Notes under the pieces: generated by a model | The model's database searches: none | What the model saw: only the letters and a program-made list of their open reading frames with translations | Told to the model about the DNA's origin: nothing | Shown: positions 15,961-23,647 of the stretch, piece after piece | Layout of the letters: every line of letters starts with the position of its first letter | How positions within the stretch are numbered: position 1 is the stretch's first letter | Position numbers and translations under genes: made by a program | Origin: Gilliamella mensalis | Lineage (GTDB): Bacteria > Pseudomonadota > Gammaproteobacteria > Enterobacterales > Orbaceae | DNA length: 64,000 bases | Assembly: GCF_900103085.1 (NCBI RefSeq) | Contig: NZ_FMWR01000005.1 | Location: 1-64,000, forward strand | Reading direction: 5' to 3'

Positions 15961-17880
15961 CTATGACAATCGCCCAAAACTATCCTTAACAATAGCGCGA
16001 AAATCATCAAATGTTTTACTATTTAATAAACGTTTAGTTGCTCTTTCCTTGACAAAATTGACAAATAAATTATAGATTTTCATGGTATCTTCATATTCAT
16101 CCTTACTAATTGCTAGCAAAAAAATAACATGTGCAATTTTATTCTTATTCCATGCAATACCTTGTGGTACCAAAATGGTTGCTACCATTGTTTTTTTTGC
16201 TAATAAACCAACAGTGTGAGGGATCGCGATGTTTTCACCTAACAATGTTGACACGATAGTTTCTCGCTCAATAACTGAAGGATAAAAATCCTGTTCGACA
16301 TAACCTGATTGCTCAAGTCTTTGGCAAACTTTTTTTAAAAGCTCCTTTTGTGTAACAGGCTTATCGATAATAAGAAAAAACTTCTCATCAAAAAATCTCT
16401 CAATAATATAAGGCATAGTTCTATCGATCATTGCCAACCGCCCCAATTGTTCAAGCTGATAAGGTGTAGGAAATGGTGAAATTTTGACTATTTGTTTATT
16501 TTTTTCTGTTAAACGAACGGTTGAAACAACAAAATCTTCTTCAATATTTACCAGCTGTTCATATTCACGGTAAGAAAGAGTTCGATTTATTTTAATATGC
16601 GGAAAATCCCGTTTAATTTTTGATTCAATCATACGCAAAGCGGCATTACCAAGCTCGCTAACAAGTAAAATTTGCGCATATCTTTCATGTCCAGCATTAT
16701 AATTACGCTCTAGTGCCACGCCGATATGTACCGCTAAGTAACTAATTTCATCTTCTGTCATTTTTGATTCAGTATACATTTCGGTATTAGCTAGCGCAGA
16801 TAATGTAATATCATAAGCAAAAGGATAATATTGTTTAATTTCATATAATAAAGGATTAGTTGTTCTAATTTGATATTTAATCCTTGATAACATTGAAGAA
16901 ATATGGATTAGCATATCTTGGTATAATTTTTCATCATCCCATAAATTATAGTGATAAGAATCATTTATATAAGATAAAATATGATTAACCAATGCCAAAC
17001 TTTTTGCTTGATTAGGTGAATCCATAATTGTTCGTGAGGCAATTTGCACACACAAATAGTTAAATTCGGCATCAGAAAGCACACTACCCAAAAAGTAAGA
17101 AAAACCTTCCGAAATTTCACGAGCAGCACTAATAATCGTCGTATTTATTTTATCGACTTGATATTCAAGGAGTTCATAACCTTGAGTAATTCTAGTTATA
17201 GAAACCGCACAACTGTAAAGTAAATACCCTTGCCCTTCAGCATTTAATTTTAATTCAAAACGTTCAAATTGGTTTTGTAAAATACGCTCAAGATATTTTA
17301 GATCGATATCATTCAAAATAGTTTGTCTAAGTCTATCTACCGTTATAGTATCTTCGACCATATGACGTCGCCATAGAATATCAGTTAAACTTGCCCGAAT
17401 AGATGATTCTTCACCAACTAACCGCATTCCATAATAGGGACGATTTTCGAGTGATAAATTATATTTATCTAAGTACTGCTTAACTTCAATAACATCATTT
17501 TGTAAAGTACTACGACTTAAAAACCACTTTTCTGCTATATCATCTAATTTAACAGGATTTGTTTGCGTTAAAAAAGCAATCAATAAGGCAGAAACTCGCT
17601 CTTTACTTGTTCGTGGGACCTGCTCTATTGGTGGTGTAATTGGTAATGTTGCATAACAATTAGGATCAGATACCACAAGTTGATAACCTATATTCTTGGT
17701 ATATTCAACTTGGGCACCATAATCATATAAAATATCGTTAAGTGCTGAAATATCAGTCCGAATTGTTCGTGTAGACACAGAAAAACGATTGGCTAGCTCT
17801 TGCTGAGGTAGTGTTTCATTTTTTATCGTATCAAATAGATACGCTAATCGCTGATAAGAAAAAAGCACTTTAGATGACAT
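15961..17880 (-). CDS. PRD/PTS-domain transcriptional activator (MtlR/LicR type)
   Basis: A 639-residue regulator and the last gene of the nine-gene accessory operon. The domain order is visible: a winged HTH (about 8-50), a second HTH-like segment (about 95-150), PRD1 (about 185-290), PRD2 (about 300-398), an EIIB-like region (about 401-490) and a fructose-type EIIA domain (about 500-639) with active-site H555 in IAIPHTVG. PRD2 keeps both phosphorylatable histidines, H326 and H385. PRD1 has no histidine at the matching places (SCAVSI, LCVQIA), and the EIIB-like part lacks the catalytic cysteine. It probably activates this operon in response to PTS phosphorylation state. The target is inferred. 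Confidence 0.9.
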   Translation of the reverse strand: MSSKVLFSYQRLAYLFDTIKNETLPQQELANRFSVSTRTIRTDISALNDILYDYGAQVEYTKNIGYQLVVSDPNCYATLPITPPIEQVPRTSKERVSALLIAFLTQTNPVKLDDIAEKWFLSRSTLQNDVIEVKQYLDKYNLSLENRPYYGMRLVGEESSIRASLTDILWRRHMVEDTITVDRLRQTILNDIDLKYLERILQNQFERFELKLNAEGQGYLLYSCAVSITRITQGYELLEYQVDKINTTIISAAREISEGFSYFLGSVLSDAEFNYLCVQIASRTIMDSPNQAKSLALVNHILSYINDSYHYNLWDDEKLYQDMLIHISSMLSRIKYQIRTTNPLLYEIKQYYPFAYDITLSALANTEMYTESKMTEDEISYLAVHIGVALERNYNAGHERYAQILLVSELGNAALRMIESKIKRDFPHIKINRTLSYREYEQLVNIEEDFVVSTVRLTEKNKQIVKISPFPTPYQLEQLGRLAMIDRTMPYIIERFFDEKFFLIIDKPVTQKELLKKVCQRLEQSGYVEQDFYPSVIERETIVSTLLGENIAIPHTVGLLAKKTMVATILVPQGIAWNKNKIAHVIFLLAISKDEYEDTMKIYNLFVNFVKERATKRLLNSKTFDDFRAIVKDSFGRLS

Positions 17881-17883
17881 ATC

Positions 17884-18624
17884 TTATCCTACTAATTTTT
17901 GGGTAATTGATAAAAGCTGTTTGACATCACTGATTCTCGTCTCGCCAGTCGTTTTATCAATAATAGAACTATAAATATGAGGAATGATTTTTTTCACACC
18001 TGCGTCTAAAGCAATTTTTAAAATATCCTCGTAGTTATCTAAATCGATCCCACCGGTAGGCTCAAGATAAAAATTGTTTTCTGCGCAACATCTAGCAACA
18101 TACTCAAATTCATCCTGATGCTTTAATCCCCCCATAGGAAAATATTTTATTGAGCTTCCTCCCATATCTTTTAATAAAGCAATTGCCGTTTCAACTGGTA
18201 CAATCGCGGCCGGTGATTTAGCACTTAGCGGTCCTGTTGCAATATTAACTAAACCAACTTTCCCTGTTGGCGAAACTAATCCGTTAACAACTGTTTCGTT
18301 TTGCCCTAATAAAGCTCTACTTGTAGCGACACCAGTAAAAACTTGATTAACATGTTGTGGTTGAAGTACAGCAGAAATTTCAGACACCATTATTGATTGA
18401 TTTGGATCACCAGCCCCCAGACCAACTGAAATCGCATTATCGATCGCTAACGCATATTTTTTCATATCAGAAATAGCAGAGGCATTATCGGGATAATTTT
18501 TAGATAAAACACCAACAACAACATGTGTTTTTGCTGCCTCATAAATAGCTTTAGCATTATCAATAGAATTAGCCAATACGTTTAAACAAACACGGCCATT
18601 GTAATAATTGGGAGTCAGTTGCAT
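17884..18624 (-). CDS. DgaF-like KDPG-type aldolase (EF_0839/AHA_3917 family)
   Basis: A 246-residue protein of the family related to DgaF, which splits 2-keto-3-deoxygluconate 6-phosphate into pyruvate and glyceraldehyde 3-phosphate in D-glucosaminate catabolism. Visible segments include NYPDNASAI, GLGAGDPNQS, SPTGKVGLVNIATGP and the GGSSIKYFPMGGLKH region near residue 158, whose lysine is a plausible Schiff-base residue. It overlaps the end of the DgaE-like gene by one base. The substrate in this operon is unknown, so I give no symbol. Confidence 0.88.
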   Translation of the reverse strand: MQLTPNYYNGRVCLNVLANSIDNAKAIYEAAKTHVVVGVLSKNYPDNASAISDMKKYALAIDNAISVGLGAGDPNQSIMVSEISAVLQPQHVNQVFTGVATSRALLGQNETVVNGLVSPTGKVGLVNIATGPLSAKSPAAIVPVETAIALLKDMGGSSIKYFPMGGLKHQDEFEYVARCCAENNFYLEPTGGIDLDNYEDILKIALDAGVKKIIPHIYSSIIDKTTGETRISDVKQLLSITQKLVG

Positions 18625-19763
18625 TATTTTATTCCTTGAATAATATTTTTAATTTTGTTGTAAATAATATCGAGTTGAGCTGATGTCACACTACGCACAT
18701 CGGCATCAACTTTGCCTTCATTGGCTTTATATTCTCTGAAGTAAACTGCAATTTCGCCTTGTTTCATCAGATCCACCATTTCGATTGCAGTTTTACCTAT
18801 CACGCTAGCATCAAACGCTATTTCTGCACGTGCGATATCACGCCCTGCGCCATCCCAAACGACGTTGGCCGATATTCCATCAAGTTCATTTAACTTTTCA
18901 ATAAATGATGTCATTTTACCTACCATTTGCTGTCCTGTTTCTTTCTGTGGTTCGGTAAGATAAAGCTCAATTGCTTTAGTTAAACCTAAAATCCCCTCTT
19001 TACCAACTTTCATTGATCGTCCAATACCTTGCGACTGCATTTTTACCCATCCAACAGCTTTTTGACGACCAATAACTAAACCACTGGTTGGCCCTTCAAT
19101 CGCTTTGGCTCCGCTATAAATAACTAAATCAGCGCCTTGTTGATAATATGTTTGCAAATCTTCTTCAGCAGCAGCATCAACAATTAATGGAATTTTGTGT
19201 TTTTGAGCAATACAGACAGCTTGCGCAATTGATAGCATACTTTTTTGCACACAATGATGGGATTTAACATATAAAATAGCCGCTGTATCTGGATTAATTA
19301 AAGATTCAATATGTTCTGGTTTACATTCATTAGCATAACCCGCTTCAACCACAATACCACCACCTAGTGAAACCATCGTACTAATCGGTGCACCAAAATT
19401 AACGTTATGACCTTTAGGGATAATAATTTCTCGAGGGACATATTTATCTGACGAATGTAAGTTAAATAGCAGATCATAGTCATCCTTGACAATTATTCCT
19501 GCAACGGCTTGAGCAATGCCAGCCGAAGCACAAGATACAACAACCGCATTTTCTACGTTGAGTAATTTAGCGATATATTGTCCCGTTTTATCAACTAAGT
19601 CTTTAATTTCAAAATACTCATTTAAACCATGCAATACTGTTTCTGCCACTTCTGATCTTGGCGTCGAAACACCTAAAATAGTCATACGGCCCGAAGCATT
19701 AATCACTTTTTTCAAGTGATATTTACTATATATATCTTTTTCAGTTTGAGATTTTAAGCCCAT
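18624..19763 (-). CDS. DgaE-like PLP-dependent ammonia lyase (SelA-related)
   Basis: A 379-residue PLP enzyme of the SelA-related family that includes DgaE, the D-glucosaminate-6-phosphate ammonia lyase. The PLP lysine is K220 in YSGAKAIEGPTSG, after LIVDAAAEED near residue 193. It should remove ammonia from an amino acid or amino-sugar acid to give a 2-keto-3-deoxy product, which the aldolase next door could split. Its start lies 23 bases inside the upstream amidohydrolase gene and is preceded by AGGTAG. Confidence 0.9.
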   Translation of the reverse strand: MGLKSQTEKDIYSKYHLKKVINASGRMTILGVSTPRSEVAETVLHGLNEYFEIKDLVDKTGQYIAKLLNVENAVVVSCASAGIAQAVAGIIVKDDYDLLFNLHSSDKYVPREIIIPKGHNVNFGAPISTMVSLGGGIVVEAGYANECKPEHIESLINPDTAAILYVKSHHCVQKSMLSIAQAVCIAQKHKIPLIVDAAAEEDLQTYYQQGADLVIYSGAKAIEGPTSGLVIGRQKAVGWVKMQSQGIGRSMKVGKEGILGLTKAIELYLTEPQKETGQQMVGKMTSFIEKLNELDGISANVVWDGAGRDIARAEIAFDASVIGKTAIEMVDLMKQGEIAVYFREYKANEGKVDADVRSVTSAQLDIIYNKIKNIIQGIK

Positions 19764-20895
19764 TTTTACTACCTTCTTCTGTTATTCCAATACACACAGT
19801 ATGTTCTTTACTCCCAGTTACAACACATGCCAAAGGAACAAACTGCTCATGACTTTGACGAACTTCACCTTCTGAATCCGATAACGAAACTGTTTCTTGT
19901 TTGATATCAAAAATAGTGAGATCTGCATCATAACCAATGGATAATTTACCTTTATTTTCAAGATGCAAAATTTGTGCTGCATTTTTTGTAACACTATCAA
20001 TAATTCGCTCCCTGCTATAACCTAAACAAATAAACTTGGTCATAACATTTGCTAGACTAAATACTGGCCCTTGAATACGGTTCTTAGAATATATATCGGA
20101 ACTAATTGTAGTTGGATAAATATCAAGTAATTTTGCCCTTTCAGCAACAGCAAAACTGAAACTCTCACCACCATGACCAATATCTAAAATTACGCCTCGC
20201 TTAATAGCCCGCCGGATTGAATCGCGAAGATTATTTTCTTTATCAAAAATTCGATTCGGCTTACCATTAAAACAATGAGTGATGATGTCTCCTTTTGTTA
20301 ACATATCGGCAATATCATCAAGCTCTGGCGGATTATTTCCCACATGAATCATTAAAGGTAATCCACTCTTTTTTTGCATATCTTTGGCTTTGACCAACGG
20401 TAATATTCCATTTTCACCAACCACACTACGACTCATTCTCACTTTTATTCCAATAATAAAATGAGAATATTTGGCTAACATTGTGTCGAATAAAGGCACA
20501 TCAATATCACGCATATCGGCAAGTTCGCTTTGTCGTATCAGCCCTATTTTCGAGATATTTAAAAAGGAATAAACATGAGTGTTGGCTTGTTGCGCTAATT
20601 GATAAAATTCATCAATATCAAGCGCACCAACGCTACCGGCATCAACTACCGAGGTGACACCAGCCTTAGTGCCGATCAAATCAGGTGCATCGTAATAAAT
20701 AGGTGAACGAGCAAAGCAATGAGTGTGAGAATCAATCCATCCAGCACTAATGTAGTGTTTAGCATGTAAATCTAAAATCTGTTGTGATTGTTCTGTAATG
20801 TTCTTACTAATCTCAACAATCTTGCCTAAATGAACTGCAATATCAACGATCGATTCGTCAATTAATTTTGCTTTCTTTATCACTAAATCATACAT
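19741..20895 (-). CDS. Amidohydrolase-family metallohydrolase (EF_0837/AHA_3915 type)
   Basis: A 384-residue dihydroorotase/deacetylase-like enzyme. Metal ligands typical of the amidohydrolase superfamily are seen: HTH in GWIDSHTHCF (near residue 55), a lysine in IGIKVRMSRS (near 150), histidines in MIHVGN and ITHCFNG, and an aspartate in ISSDIYSK (near 265). A TTG at 20907 would add four residues; I chose the ATG at 20895. Its place before a DgaE/DgaF pair suggests that it opens an amide or similar bond so that the product can enter ammonia elimination. The substrate is not known. Confidence 0.86.
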   Translation of the reverse strand: MYDLVIKKAKLIDESIVDIAVHLGKIVEISKNITEQSQQILDLHAKHYISAGWIDSHTHCFARSPIYYDAPDLIGTKAGVTSVVDAGSVGALDIDEFYQLAQQANTHVYSFLNISKIGLIRQSELADMRDIDVPLFDTMLAKYSHFIIGIKVRMSRSVVGENGILPLVKAKDMQKKSGLPLMIHVGNNPPELDDIADMLTKGDIITHCFNGKPNRIFDKENNLRDSIRRAIKRGVILDIGHGGESFSFAVAERAKLLDIYPTTISSDIYSKNRIQGPVFSLANVMTKFICLGYSRERIIDSVTKNAAQILHLENKGKLSIGYDADLTIFDIKQETVSLSDSEGEVRQSHEQFVPLACVVTGSKEHTVCIGITEEGSKNGLKISN

Positions 20896-20946
20896 AATTA
20901 AATCCAAATCCTCTGTAATTTAGGCAATGACAAAGGAGTATTAAAA

Positions 20947-21600
20947 TCACGCAATTGGGAAGATCCCACCAAAAATCATTGCACCTAATATTGCACCACC
21001 AGTGATAGGCTTTTTCCATACATAAAAGATAAGCGCACCAAGTAATGAGCCAATACCAATTGGAATTGAGGCAACCATCGCCGATAAAATAATCATTGGT
21101 CCTAAAAATCTTCCCGATGTATTACCCGCCCCCATCATGACATCAGCCCCAAATGTTGAGCCACCGCCACTATTTAGCGTAAATTTACGAATAATAATAA
21201 TAATAAACCCAATCAATACACCTAAAACAAGACCGGTTACCAACGCAGCAAAAAAGTTTTCGACAGGTAATGTGTAACCGCCCGCTAAAAGCAATGCAGG
21301 AACGCCTAAACCAATACCAGTTTGTAAGGCACCACCAATATCTAATATACCGACTAACGACCCTTCAATGACTCGAGCAAATAAAAAGCTCGCCCCAAAA
21401 GCAGCCACTGCACCATAATCGCCTGTTGTCATTCCTGATTTAAGCATGGCGACAAAAGCAATTTCATTAAATGCACCAATACCATAAACATAAAAAGTAT
21501 GCGTCCCAGCAAAAATCCCAGCAGATAATAATCCACAGATAATAGGGAATGACCAATCGGCATACCAAAAGCTCTTATTAATGGTTGTTTCTGTATTCAT
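20947..21600 (-). CDS. DUF4310 family membrane protein
   Basis: A 217-residue inner-membrane protein with about six hydrophobic segments, many of them rich in glycine and alanine (for example GALQTGIGLGVPALLLAGG near residue 90 and VLGVLIGFIIIIIRK near 125). It belongs to the DUF4310 family (EF_0832/AHA_3913 type), found only in this kind of cluster as far as I recall. The gene lies 15 bases after the DUF4311 gene. The two membrane proteins may pair as a transporter, perhaps with the two small soluble proteins encoded just upstream. No function has been shown that I know of. Confidence 0.85.
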   Translation of the reverse strand: MNTETTINKSFWYADWSFPIICGLLSAGIFAGTHTFYVYGIGAFNEIAFVAMLKSGMTTGDYGAVAAFGASFLFARVIEGSLVGILDIGGALQTGIGLGVPALLLAGGYTLPVENFFAALVTGLVLGVLIGFIIIIIRKFTLNSGGGSTFGADVMMGAGNTSGRFLGPMIILSAMVASIPIGIGSLLGALIFYVWKKPITGGAILGAMIFGGIFPIA

Positions 21601-21615
21601 AACGTGTTCCCTATA

Positions 21616-22368
21616 CTATTTAAACCAATAAGATAGACCATCTCTAAAAGAGTTAATCATCTTCATATCAAAGCCACGGAAATATCCGCTCATGACAAAT
21701 AAGATAATAACGGCAACCAACATGATCTTCATCACACGATTCCAACCACTATCATCCACACCTTTGCCTATCAAAATACCTAATACAAGTCCTGGTACAG
21801 CATTCCCCATAATTAACTGTGCAAGCCCGCCAAATAGTGTTCCCCAAAAGCCACTTCTTCGCCCAGCGTCTAACGCAGCTAACCAAAAGATAACCGGCAT
21901 GACAGTTGCTACAAGTAAATTGGCAGCAGGAACGAGTACTTTAGTTGCTGTAATCTTCAAGGAATCGGGGATTGCTGAGGTTGTGGTATTTAAAAATAGC
22001 ACAACAAGTACACCAATAATTGTGCACACAGATGCCATTTTTTTCGGTTCATGTAACGTTTCGGTAATATTACGATTTTTTACCATCAGTAACGCTGCCC
22101 CCCAATTTGGAATGATACGATGATCAACATCTTGAGTAAAAGAACCAGCTGCAACAGATGAAGCCCAAGCATTAAAGAAAAATCCGAGGCCAAAAGAAAA
22201 ATGCGCAGCAGGATCCCCTTCGCAAGAATTAAGCTCACCTAATGTGCGAAATGCTCCCATACCTTGATATGTTGGTGCATGAAACATGCGAGCAGCACCG
22301 GTACCGACCCCAAAACCACAAAGCCCACCGATAACAATAGACTTCAATGCAATAATTAAGATTTCCAT
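21616..22368 (-). CDS. DUF4311 family membrane protein
   Basis: A 250-residue inner-membrane protein with roughly seven hydrophobic stretches and a conserved-looking N-terminal motif, GVGTGAARMFHAPTYQGMGA (about residues 20-39). It has a soluble-looking loop, PNWGAALLMVKNRNITETLHEPKK, near residues 88-111. It matches the DUF4311 family (EF_0833/AHA_3914 type). It is always paired with DUF4310 in the clusters I recall. A split permease is the simplest reading, but it is only an inference. The ATG has a GGAAAG-like ribosome-binding site. Confidence 0.85.
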   Translation of the reverse strand: MEILIIALKSIVIGGLCGFGVGTGAARMFHAPTYQGMGAFRTLGELNSCEGDPAAHFSFGLGFFFNAWASSVAAGSFTQDVDHRIIPNWGAALLMVKNRNITETLHEPKKMASVCTIIGVLVVLFLNTTTSAIPDSLKITATKVLVPAANLLVATVMPVIFWLAALDAGRRSGFWGTLFGGLAQLIMGNAVPGLVLGILIGKGVDDSGWNRVMKIMLVAVIILFVMSGYFRGFDMKMINSFRDGLSYWFK

Positions 22369-22388
22369 AACTTTCCTTTTCCGTTATG

Positions 22389-22685
22389 TTATTTAGAGCT
22401 AAATTCAATTTCACTTAGATCAATAAAAATGACATCAACAGATACAGCGAGCGTAACTTCATAAAATGCTTTTTTCCTTGGCAAAAAGATAAACAAAAAC
22501 CGCTCAGTGGTTATCTTTTCTATTGCTGATACAACCTGAATATCAATCGGTTCAATACGTAACATAATATTATGTGTATTTTTAAGTACCTCTTTTTGAA
22601 CCTGACTTAGTGCTGCCGCAAATGCCCTTTGTTTAGAATCACCAAGGCCTTTTACTTTTACGGTCATCTGCTGAGTTTTTTTCAT
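22389..22685 (-). CDS. DUF4312 family protein
   Basis: A 98-residue soluble protein with a mixed alpha/beta pattern: MTVKVKGLGDSKQRAFAAAL at the start, then IMLRIEPIDIQVVSAIEKI, FLFIFLPRKKAFYEVTLAV and a final strand. It fits the DUF4312 family (EF_0831/AHA_3912 type). The fold suggested by alternating strands may be ferredoxin-like, but this is a guess. It lies between the SFCGS and DUF4311 genes with gaps of 14 and 20 bases, so it is part of the operon. Function unknown. Confidence 0.82.
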   Translation of the reverse strand: MKKTQQMTVKVKGLGDSKQRAFAAALSQVQKEVLKNTHNIMLRIEPIDIQVVSAIEKITTERFLFIFLPRKKAFYEVTLAVSVDVIFIDLSEIEFSSK

Positions 22686-22699
22686 TCTTATCTTCCATT

Positions 22700-23068
22700 T
22701 TATGAACGTGGATATTTTTTCAAAAAAGCTTTTGCAACACGTTGCCCAAGCTCTTCTGTATCCATAAAACCAAAGCCAAGGACTTTACACCCCTCATTAA
22801 TTGCCGTTTCACCTTCTTCGATAGATCGCATACCATGACGTTGTGGATAGCCATATTTATTTTGTGCTGTAATCGCGCCAGCACCACCGCTACCACAAAA
22901 AGAAAGTCCTAAATCCGCATTTTCTTTATTCATCACATCACCCAACTTCATATCAGCTGCCATACCAGGAATAACAATAGCACGGCACCCTTCCACAGAA
23001 TTAATGCCATTTGCTATTTTCTGTCCTTTTCCCATTCTATCGCCAATGACAATAACTACTTCAGTCAT
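22700..23068 (-). CDS. Glycine-rich SFCGS family protein
   Basis: A 122-residue soluble protein named after its SFCGSGGAGA motif (near residues 56-65, cysteine near 58). An N-terminal strand, TEVVIVIGDRMGKG, suggests a Rossmann-like fold. The segment around the cysteine, followed by ITAQNKYGYPQRHG, recalls the catalytic CGTG loop and downstream NK of RpiB/LacAB-type isomerases. This is a by-eye similarity, not an assignment. A strong AGGAG ribosome-binding site precedes the ATG. It belongs to the EF_0830/AHA_3911 family and always occurs with the DUF4310-4312 genes as far as I recall. Confidence 0.85.
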   Translation of the reverse strand: MTEVVIVIGDRMGKGQKIANGINSVEGCRAIVIPGMAADMKLGDVMNKENADLGLSFCGSGGAGAITAQNKYGYPQRHGMRSIEEGETAINEGCKVLGFGFMDTEELGQRVAKAFLKKYPRS

Positions 23069-23121
23069 AATGTTTCTCCTATTTAATTTTCATTTTAGAA
23101 TGTCTAGTATTTGTTTTAGTT

Positions 23122-23451
23122 TTAGTTTGCCTTAGCGACTTCATAATGCACCGCTAATAAATAAGCCTCTTCCATTGGTAAATTATTGAATAATTCTATT
23201 GTTTTACGTGCCAATAATAATGATTCTTCCGAAATTTCATCAAAAAGCATCGGATCGACTTTGGGAAGCTTTTCTAAATTTTTTGCTCTTTCTACCATAG
23301 CTTTAATGTGGGAATACAACATCGCCTTTTGGACATCATTTTGAAAAATGTGACATTCAGCTAGCCAATCATTAATTATTTCAATAGTTTGCTTAGTAAC
23401 TAATTCTAGATCCAGATTATCTTCGATCATACGAAACTTCATTTGGTTCAT
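23122..23451 (-). CDS. Standalone PRD-domain protein (EF_0829/AHA_3910 type)
   Basis: A 109-residue protein made of a single PTS-regulation domain. Histidines at positions expected for phosphorylation are H48 (YSHIKAMVER) and H102 (LAVHYEVAK). There is no DNA-binding domain, so it may modulate the large PRD activator at the other end of the operon or act as a phosphate sink. It is the first gene of the operon. No strong ribosome-binding site is visible before ATG 23451; an alternative ATG lies at 23442. Confidence 0.82.
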   Translation of the reverse strand: MNQMKFRMIEDNLDLELVTKQTIEIINDWLAECHIFQNDVQKAMLYSHIKAMVERAKNLEKLPKVDPMLFDEISEESLLLARKTIELFNNLPMEEAYLLAVHYEVAKAN

Positions 23452-23631: not shown

Positions 23632-23647
23632 TGTGATTTAGATCATA
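23632..23647. promoter_or_regulatory. CRP-like binding site
   Basis: TGTGATTTAGATCATA has one perfect CRP half site (TGTGA), a 6-base spacer and a near-perfect second half (TCATA for TCACA). It lies about 180 bases before the first gene of the PRD/DUF operon and at class II distance from a -10 box. It suggests cAMP-CRP activation, that is, a carbon-catabolite-controlled operon. Confidence 0.6.

Follow-up and report, generated by a model that had tools for sequence, protein, structure and literature searches.

A probable Dga-pathway variant with a distinct, putative uptake module in Gilliamella mensalis

The locus and its conservation

A window of 64,000 nucleotides (nt) from the bee-gut bacterium Gilliamella mensalis (contig NZ_FMWR01000005.1, positions 1 to 64,000 of the forward strand) contains a nine-gene operon in which enzymes of the Dga type, DgaE and DgaF, adjoin four small proteins of the families SFCGS, DUF4312, DUF4311, and DUF4310. 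The nine ORFs lie on the minus strand between positions 15961 and 23451, with spacings of at most 53 nt or small overlaps; the coordinates and gene set are those described by an earlier sequence-only reading. Each small-protein or enzyme gene was accepted at its curated NCBIfam cut-off, and Pfam was concordant. The EF_0829 PRD, EF_0830 SFCGS, EF_0831 DUF4312, EF_0832 DUF4311, and EF_0833 DUF4310 families all passed, as did the EF_0837 metallohydrolase, the DgaE family (TIGR01437), and the aldolase (NF047796/TIGR03581); the ninth gene encodes a PRD regulator. With its member families above cut-off and contiguous, the operon belongs to the conserved cluster EF_0829-0839/AHA_3910-3917, as that reading had suggested. 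It contains no dgaABCD genes, an absence also remarked on earlier, and the single mannose-type enzyme IIC (EIIC) of the genome lies on another contig. No Rfam element reached the gathering score at the locus, a promoter and terminator scan there did no better than chance, and the cluster was found on no viral contig.

A DUF4310-profile scan of 84,980 species genomes identified 407 relatives, the nearest being a 100%-identical protein from Gilliamella sp. Pas-s25. Gene order was counted in the best 80 of the 407 (Gilliamella and another orbacean, Enterobacterales, and Aeromonas); all nine genes occur in identical order in 80/80 loci, a sample biased to close relatives because it holds the nearest of the 407. 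A less biased sample is given by 299 evenly drawn Pseudomonadota genomes, where DUF4310, DUF4311, SFCGS, and the DgaF-type aldolase are confined to the same seven. Strict co-occurrence with the enzymes, which the sequence-only reading had put forward as a check, is thus borne out, and no spread of the small proteins apart from the enzymes was seen in these genomes.

The cluster was also found in enteric bacteria, Aeromonas, and Enterococcus, and on Bartonella plasmids. The position of the Gilliamella operon is constant, between yceD-plsX-fabH and TPM-domain/LemA-like/rpoC genes, in the loci that reach that far. SFCGS and DUF4311 occur together in six records of a plasmid collection; DUF4310 is matched in these six as well, though only partially in one, from Aeromonas. 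In this record (Aeromonas caviae NZ_AP026896.1, 430557-432154) the DUF4310 match covers 18% of its length, none of the matches is annotated, and the cluster may be broken. Weak DUF4311 matches in two genomes were rejected as the transmembrane (TM) helix of a DjlA-like protein.

Enzymes of the predicted lower pathway

The DgaE-family pyridoxal phosphate (PLP) ammonia-lyase (18624..19763) scored 563 bits with TIGR01437 (cut-off, 385), and the DgaF/KDGP aldolase (17884..18624) scored 389.5 bits with NF047796 (cut-off, 300) and E=1.8e-106 with PF07071. DgaE fell below the narrower glucosaminate-6-phosphate lyase equivalog NF047797 (372 bits versus a cut-off of 600). In the solved Salmonella lyase, DGL, the substrate phosphate lies near Arg301, Arg332, and Arg346 and the carboxylate near Arg226; His163 is the proton donor, and the PLP lysine, written Lys-217 (PMC9529869), is residue 213 in chain numbering. 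We counted the equivalent residues in 85 operon homologues, Enterococcus and Bartonella among them. Lys213, His163, and the phosphate arginines 301, 332, and 346 (DGL numbering) are invariant in 85/85, and position 226 is Arg or Lys. Invariance of the 6-phosphate arginines argues that the lyase substrate is phosphorylated, and a 6-phosphorylated 2-amino-aldonate is the likely one. With both families above cut-off and the catalytic and phosphate residues of DGL kept, the DgaE/DgaF lower pathway proposed in the sequence-only reading stands. DgaE would eliminate water and ammonia to give 2-keto-3-deoxygluconate-6-phosphate (KDPG), which DgaF would cleave to pyruvate and glyceraldehyde-3-phosphate.

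In one genome, G166, which carries the DUF operon, KDGP aldolase is matched a second time at a distance of ∼140 kb. Around this second match are genes for a 946-aa regulator and for two small soluble and two membrane proteins like EIIA, EIIB, EIIC, and EIID; these are followed by a DgaE that starts like the solved DGL and by a gene covered by the aldolase match. The locus was assigned as a canonical dga operon by reading its sequence, the aldolase alone being profile scored. Coexistence of the canonical dgaABCDEF with the DUF operon argues that the two take different inputs. In G166, SFCGS-DUF4312-DUF4311-DUF4310 occupy the slot held by the DgaABCD permease in the canonical operon. Both operons are laid out as a soluble pair of small proteins, a membrane pair, and then the enzymes, with the hydrolase as an extra in the DUF operon.

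The EF_0837-type metallohydrolase (19741..20907; TIGR03583, 521.7 bits, cut-off 432) is predicted to be cytoplasmic and is presumed to be an N-deacylase. Its binuclear ligands H61, H63, K155, H188, H211, and D271 are conserved in 82/85 homologues and form the set of a binuclear amidohydrolase: an HxH motif, a carboxylated lysine, two histidines, and an aspartate. The solved relatives 8WZY and 2ICS are named dihydroorotase and adenine deaminase, names that are annotations. For relatives in COG3964, acetyl-(R)-mandelate is reportedly a good substrate and N-acetyl-D-serine a poor one, a preference that would fit an N-acyl acid with the R configuration at C2.

At 44/65 non-Gilliamella loci, the aldolase is followed by a gene with a signal-peptide-like N-terminus, encoding a seven-bladed propeller lactonase, which matches PF10282 at E=1.8e-99 in Klebsiella; proteins of this Pfam family are absent from Gilliamella. 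An exported lactonase in relatives points to an aldonic acid supplied as its lactone. In the same pathway, the amidohydrolase might instead open a lactam, hydantoin, or lactone ring, or it might remove a non-acetyl acyl group, for example an amino acid or glycolyl. The EF_0837-type family has dihydroorotase, allantoinase, and hydantoinase relatives, and the lactonase shows that cyclic forms matter; however, dihydroorotate is not a known substrate of the related COG3964 enzymes, and we consider this alternative unlikely. The amidohydrolase had earlier been proposed to prepare an acylated or cyclised substrate before ammonia elimination. The enzyme itself holds up as a feature separating the operon from the dga operon of G166, and a cyclised substrate gains indirectly from the exported lactonase of relatives, though Gilliamella has none.

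Small proteins, phosphoryl supply, and regulation

Twenty of 22 members of the SFCGS family (PF14272/EF_0830; 22700..23068) match Pfam LacAB_rpiB weakly (best E=0.0022). The AlphaFold model of SFCGS has a predicted local distance difference test score (pLDDT) of 92.3, and the top 40 rows of a Foldseek search with it are all RpiB, LacA/LacB, or related isomerases. Re-alignment gave Z scores up to 12.7 over 118 residues for the RpiB family, with unrelated folds from ∼8. In the predicted model, Cys58, in a CGSGGAGA loop, follows the third strand (53-57), as in RpiB, and is aligned to the CGTG loop of E. coli RpiB; by eye, the first-loop aspartate is possibly retained. The comparison uses the residue roles of RpiB, of which the active-site histidine (E. 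coli His99) and the C-terminal phosphate arginines have no SFCGS counterparts in the alignment. Judged from the model, SFCGS is soluble and has the RpiB/LacAB fold, its active site being altered in part, and it would act as a sugar-phosphate-binding enzyme or sensor, less likely as a phosphocarrier.

An EIIB of the lactose/galactitol type was rejected for SFCGS: its cysteine follows the third strand, not the first, the first loop (DRMGKG) has no cysteine, and EIIB chains reach only Z ∼7.5. Since SFCGS has the RpiB/LacAB fold with a catalytic cysteine loop, it is no obvious transporter subunit. The claim of the sequence-only reading that a new kind of transporter is built from the four small proteins is not supported as worded: SFCGS is nearer a sugar-phosphate isomerase or sensor, and the only membrane proteins among the four are DUF4310 and DUF4311.

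Hydropathy gives about five TM-like stretches for DUF4311 (PF14188/EF_0832; 21616..22368), which has many invariant polar residues, and about six for DUF4310 (PF14187/EF_0833; 20947..21600); DUF4312 (PF14189/EF_0831; 22389..22685) is small and has no TM segment. DUF4310 and DUF4311 are presumed permease halves, a transport role that we infer from their TM-like stretches, their place in the operon, and their strict linkage. A rival view makes them a membrane sensor or exporter and assigns uptake to another permease. It draws on the E. faecalis cluster, in which a LacE-type EIIC sits between DUF4310 and the enzymes, and on the resemblance of SFCGS and the PRD protein to signalling or enzyme parts. 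A PDB sequence search with the four small-protein profiles gave chance matches alone, and hhalign gave no signal between DUF4310 or DUF4311 and mannose- or glucitol-type EII, where the positive control of EIIC versus EIID was negative too. We nevertheless find this view improbable, given two polytopic proteins in the exact DgaC/DgaD slot, strictly tied to the enzymes, and no other permease in the Gilliamella, enteric, or Bartonella operons.

Evidence for a source of phosphoryl groups comes from two Bartonella plasmids from bat faeces, on which a gene for an HPr-EI fusion, retaining the two active-site histidine motifs, comes directly after the whole operon. This gene is the sole phosphotransferase system (PTS) gene listed on the Bartonella plasmid outside the operon, so that the operon moved with its own phosphoryl supply. 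Its presence indicates that PTS phosphoryl transfer is part of the system; the recipient of the phosphoryl groups could be the permease, the regulator, or both of them. Beside the Bartonella copies (L089, 272-10062; L090, 7630-17420; also L156) are a cluster for type VI secretion and a repA/ParA region that is duplicated in inverted orientation.

The PRD regulator (15961..17880) contains, by Pfam, HTH_11, Mga, two PRD, and EIIA_2 domains, and it also has an EIIB-like segment. Its EIIA His555 and PRD His326 and His385 are kept in 84/84 sequences. The EIIB-like P-loop cysteine (residue 408) is cysteine in 67/84 and serine in 17/84, the same number as that of the Orbaceae sequences; it is serine in this Gilliamella regulator and, with serine in all three Orbaceae sequences inspected, apparently in the other Orbaceae copies. 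The EIIB phosphorylation switch thus seems to be lost in Orbaceae regulators. In the standalone PRD protein (TIGR03582/EF_0829 family; 23122..23451; NCBIfam 110.6 bits, cut-off 69.35), His48 and His102 are invariant and there is no DNA-binding domain; the protein is a presumed PTS-responsive partner. The first gene is preceded, at a distance of 180 nt, by a CRP-like site, TATGATCTAAATCACA (23632..23647, minus strand), with 9/10 consensus half-site bases. Such sites score at least 9 in 33/83 upstream regions, compared to 0.5 expected in shuffles, the sequences being related to each other. Expression would be tuned to the state of the PTS by the regulator, the standalone PRD protein, and cyclic AMP-CRP.

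Proposed pathway and comparison with known systems

Our preferred interpretation, held with moderate confidence, is that the operon is a self-contained unit that takes up an N-acylated 2-amino-2-deoxy-aldonate and degrades it to pyruvate, glyceraldehyde-3-phosphate, and ammonia, as a source of carbon and nitrogen. The favoured substrate is N-acetyl-D-glucosaminate or one of its close stereoisomers. It would enter the periplasm as the free acid or as the lactone, and those 44 relatives would use their exported lactonase to open the latter. Transfer of the acid over the inner membrane would fall to DUF4311 and DUF4310, with DUF4312 as a possible helper, and its O6 would be phosphorylated, probably from PTS phosphoryl groups. 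The metallohydrolase would then strip the acyl group ahead of the DgaE and DgaF steps.

Several observations weigh against this interpretation. The operon encodes neither a kinase nor a recognisable PTS permease that would account for the phosphate, and a kdgK homologue in the genome (55% to E. coli) leaves room for an unphosphorylated route. The HPr-EI gene could serve the PRD regulator alone. The predicted DUF4310 model is unusable (pLDDT 47), probably as a result of a family too conserved for a diverse alignment. Lytic polysaccharide monooxygenase genes are no commoner in carriers of the cluster (14/38) than in non-carriers of the same order (7/16), so a link to chitin oxidation is unsupported. 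The E. faecalis cluster has a different regulator and additional genes (the LacE-type EIIC, a MupG homologue, a 99-aa protein, and a KDG-kinase-like gene), and the input there is possibly different; the extras suggest a phosphorylated disaccharide as an extra input. The 99-aa protein (L088, 12118-12417) is encoded between the EIIC and MupG genes and has no Pfam or NCBIfam match.

The kdgK homologue and the KDG-kinase-like gene adjoining the E. faecalis cluster also bear on a non-phosphorylated route, for which OngB, OngC, and KdgK of the marine Ong pathway are a precedent (PMC9537276). N-acetyl-glucosaminate would be taken up by secondary transport and deacetylated, DgaE would yield 2-keto-3-deoxygluconate, and KdgK would make KDPG for DgaF. 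We regard such a route as doubtful in view of the phosphate arginines invariant in 85/85 DgaE homologues, the lack of a kinase in the inspected operons of Gilliamella, enterics, and Bartonella, and the HPr-EI gene added in Bartonella.

In the literature searched, DUF4310, DUF4311, and DUF4312 are unmentioned and no relevant paper on the function of the cluster was found. The cluster is known to annotators as NCBIfam hypothetical equivalogs; the additions here are a proposed pathway, an RpiB fold for SFCGS, and the lactonase and HPr-EI associations. Naming a likely lower pathway, a phosphorylated intermediate, and a fold for SFCGS turns four uncharacterised families into a testable question of uptake and catabolism, with possible exposure of a new transporter class.

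Four systems offer comparison. The EF_0829-0839/AHA_3910-3917 neighbourhood has the same families above cut-off and includes the Gilliamella operon, and differs in the extra genes and regulator of E. faecalis. The E. coli yhf operon (yhfS-yhfZ; L092, 2936-10345) is of similar design: YhfY is a standalone PRD related to the Gilliamella one, YhfU/DUF2620 is a small protein with a cysteine loop, and there are also a PLP enzyme, an amidohydrolase-superfamily protein, and a membrane protein that is unclassified. Its enzymes are different. The PRD relationship is distant (hhalign probability, 43%) and the YhfU match to LacAB_rpiB is weak (E=0.065). YhfU and SFCGS are not significantly similar by hhalign. 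YhfT has no detectable similarity to DUF4310 or DUF4311, a comparison for which the EIIC-EIID control was negative as well. The yhf resemblance is a lead. On a bolder view, SFCGS-DUF4312-DUF4311-DUF4310 would be a new PTS-coupled permease class that imports and phosphorylates amino-aldonates, with the RpiB-fold Cys58 protein replacing EIIB and the small-protein and membrane parts of yhf as a cousin design; we think this unlikely.

The marine ong cluster (PMC9537276) also takes N-acetyl-glucosaminate as far as KDPG, with a deacylase and a PLP-dependent deamination, but it uses other enzyme families, a sodium:solute symporter (SSS), and a kinase after deamination. Salmonella dgaABCDEF shares a DgaE-type lyase, in which the active-site and phosphate residues are the same, a DgaF-type aldolase, and four small uptake genes, two soluble and two membrane, ahead of the enzymes. 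Unlike it, the Gilliamella operon lacks the mannose-type EIIABCD and a sigma-54-like -24/-12 match upstream, has an added metallohydrolase, and has its PRD-EIIA regulator and standalone PRD in place of the large LevR/NtrC-like DgaR. We conclude that the cluster probably encodes a Dga-pathway variant in which another uptake module has been put to use.

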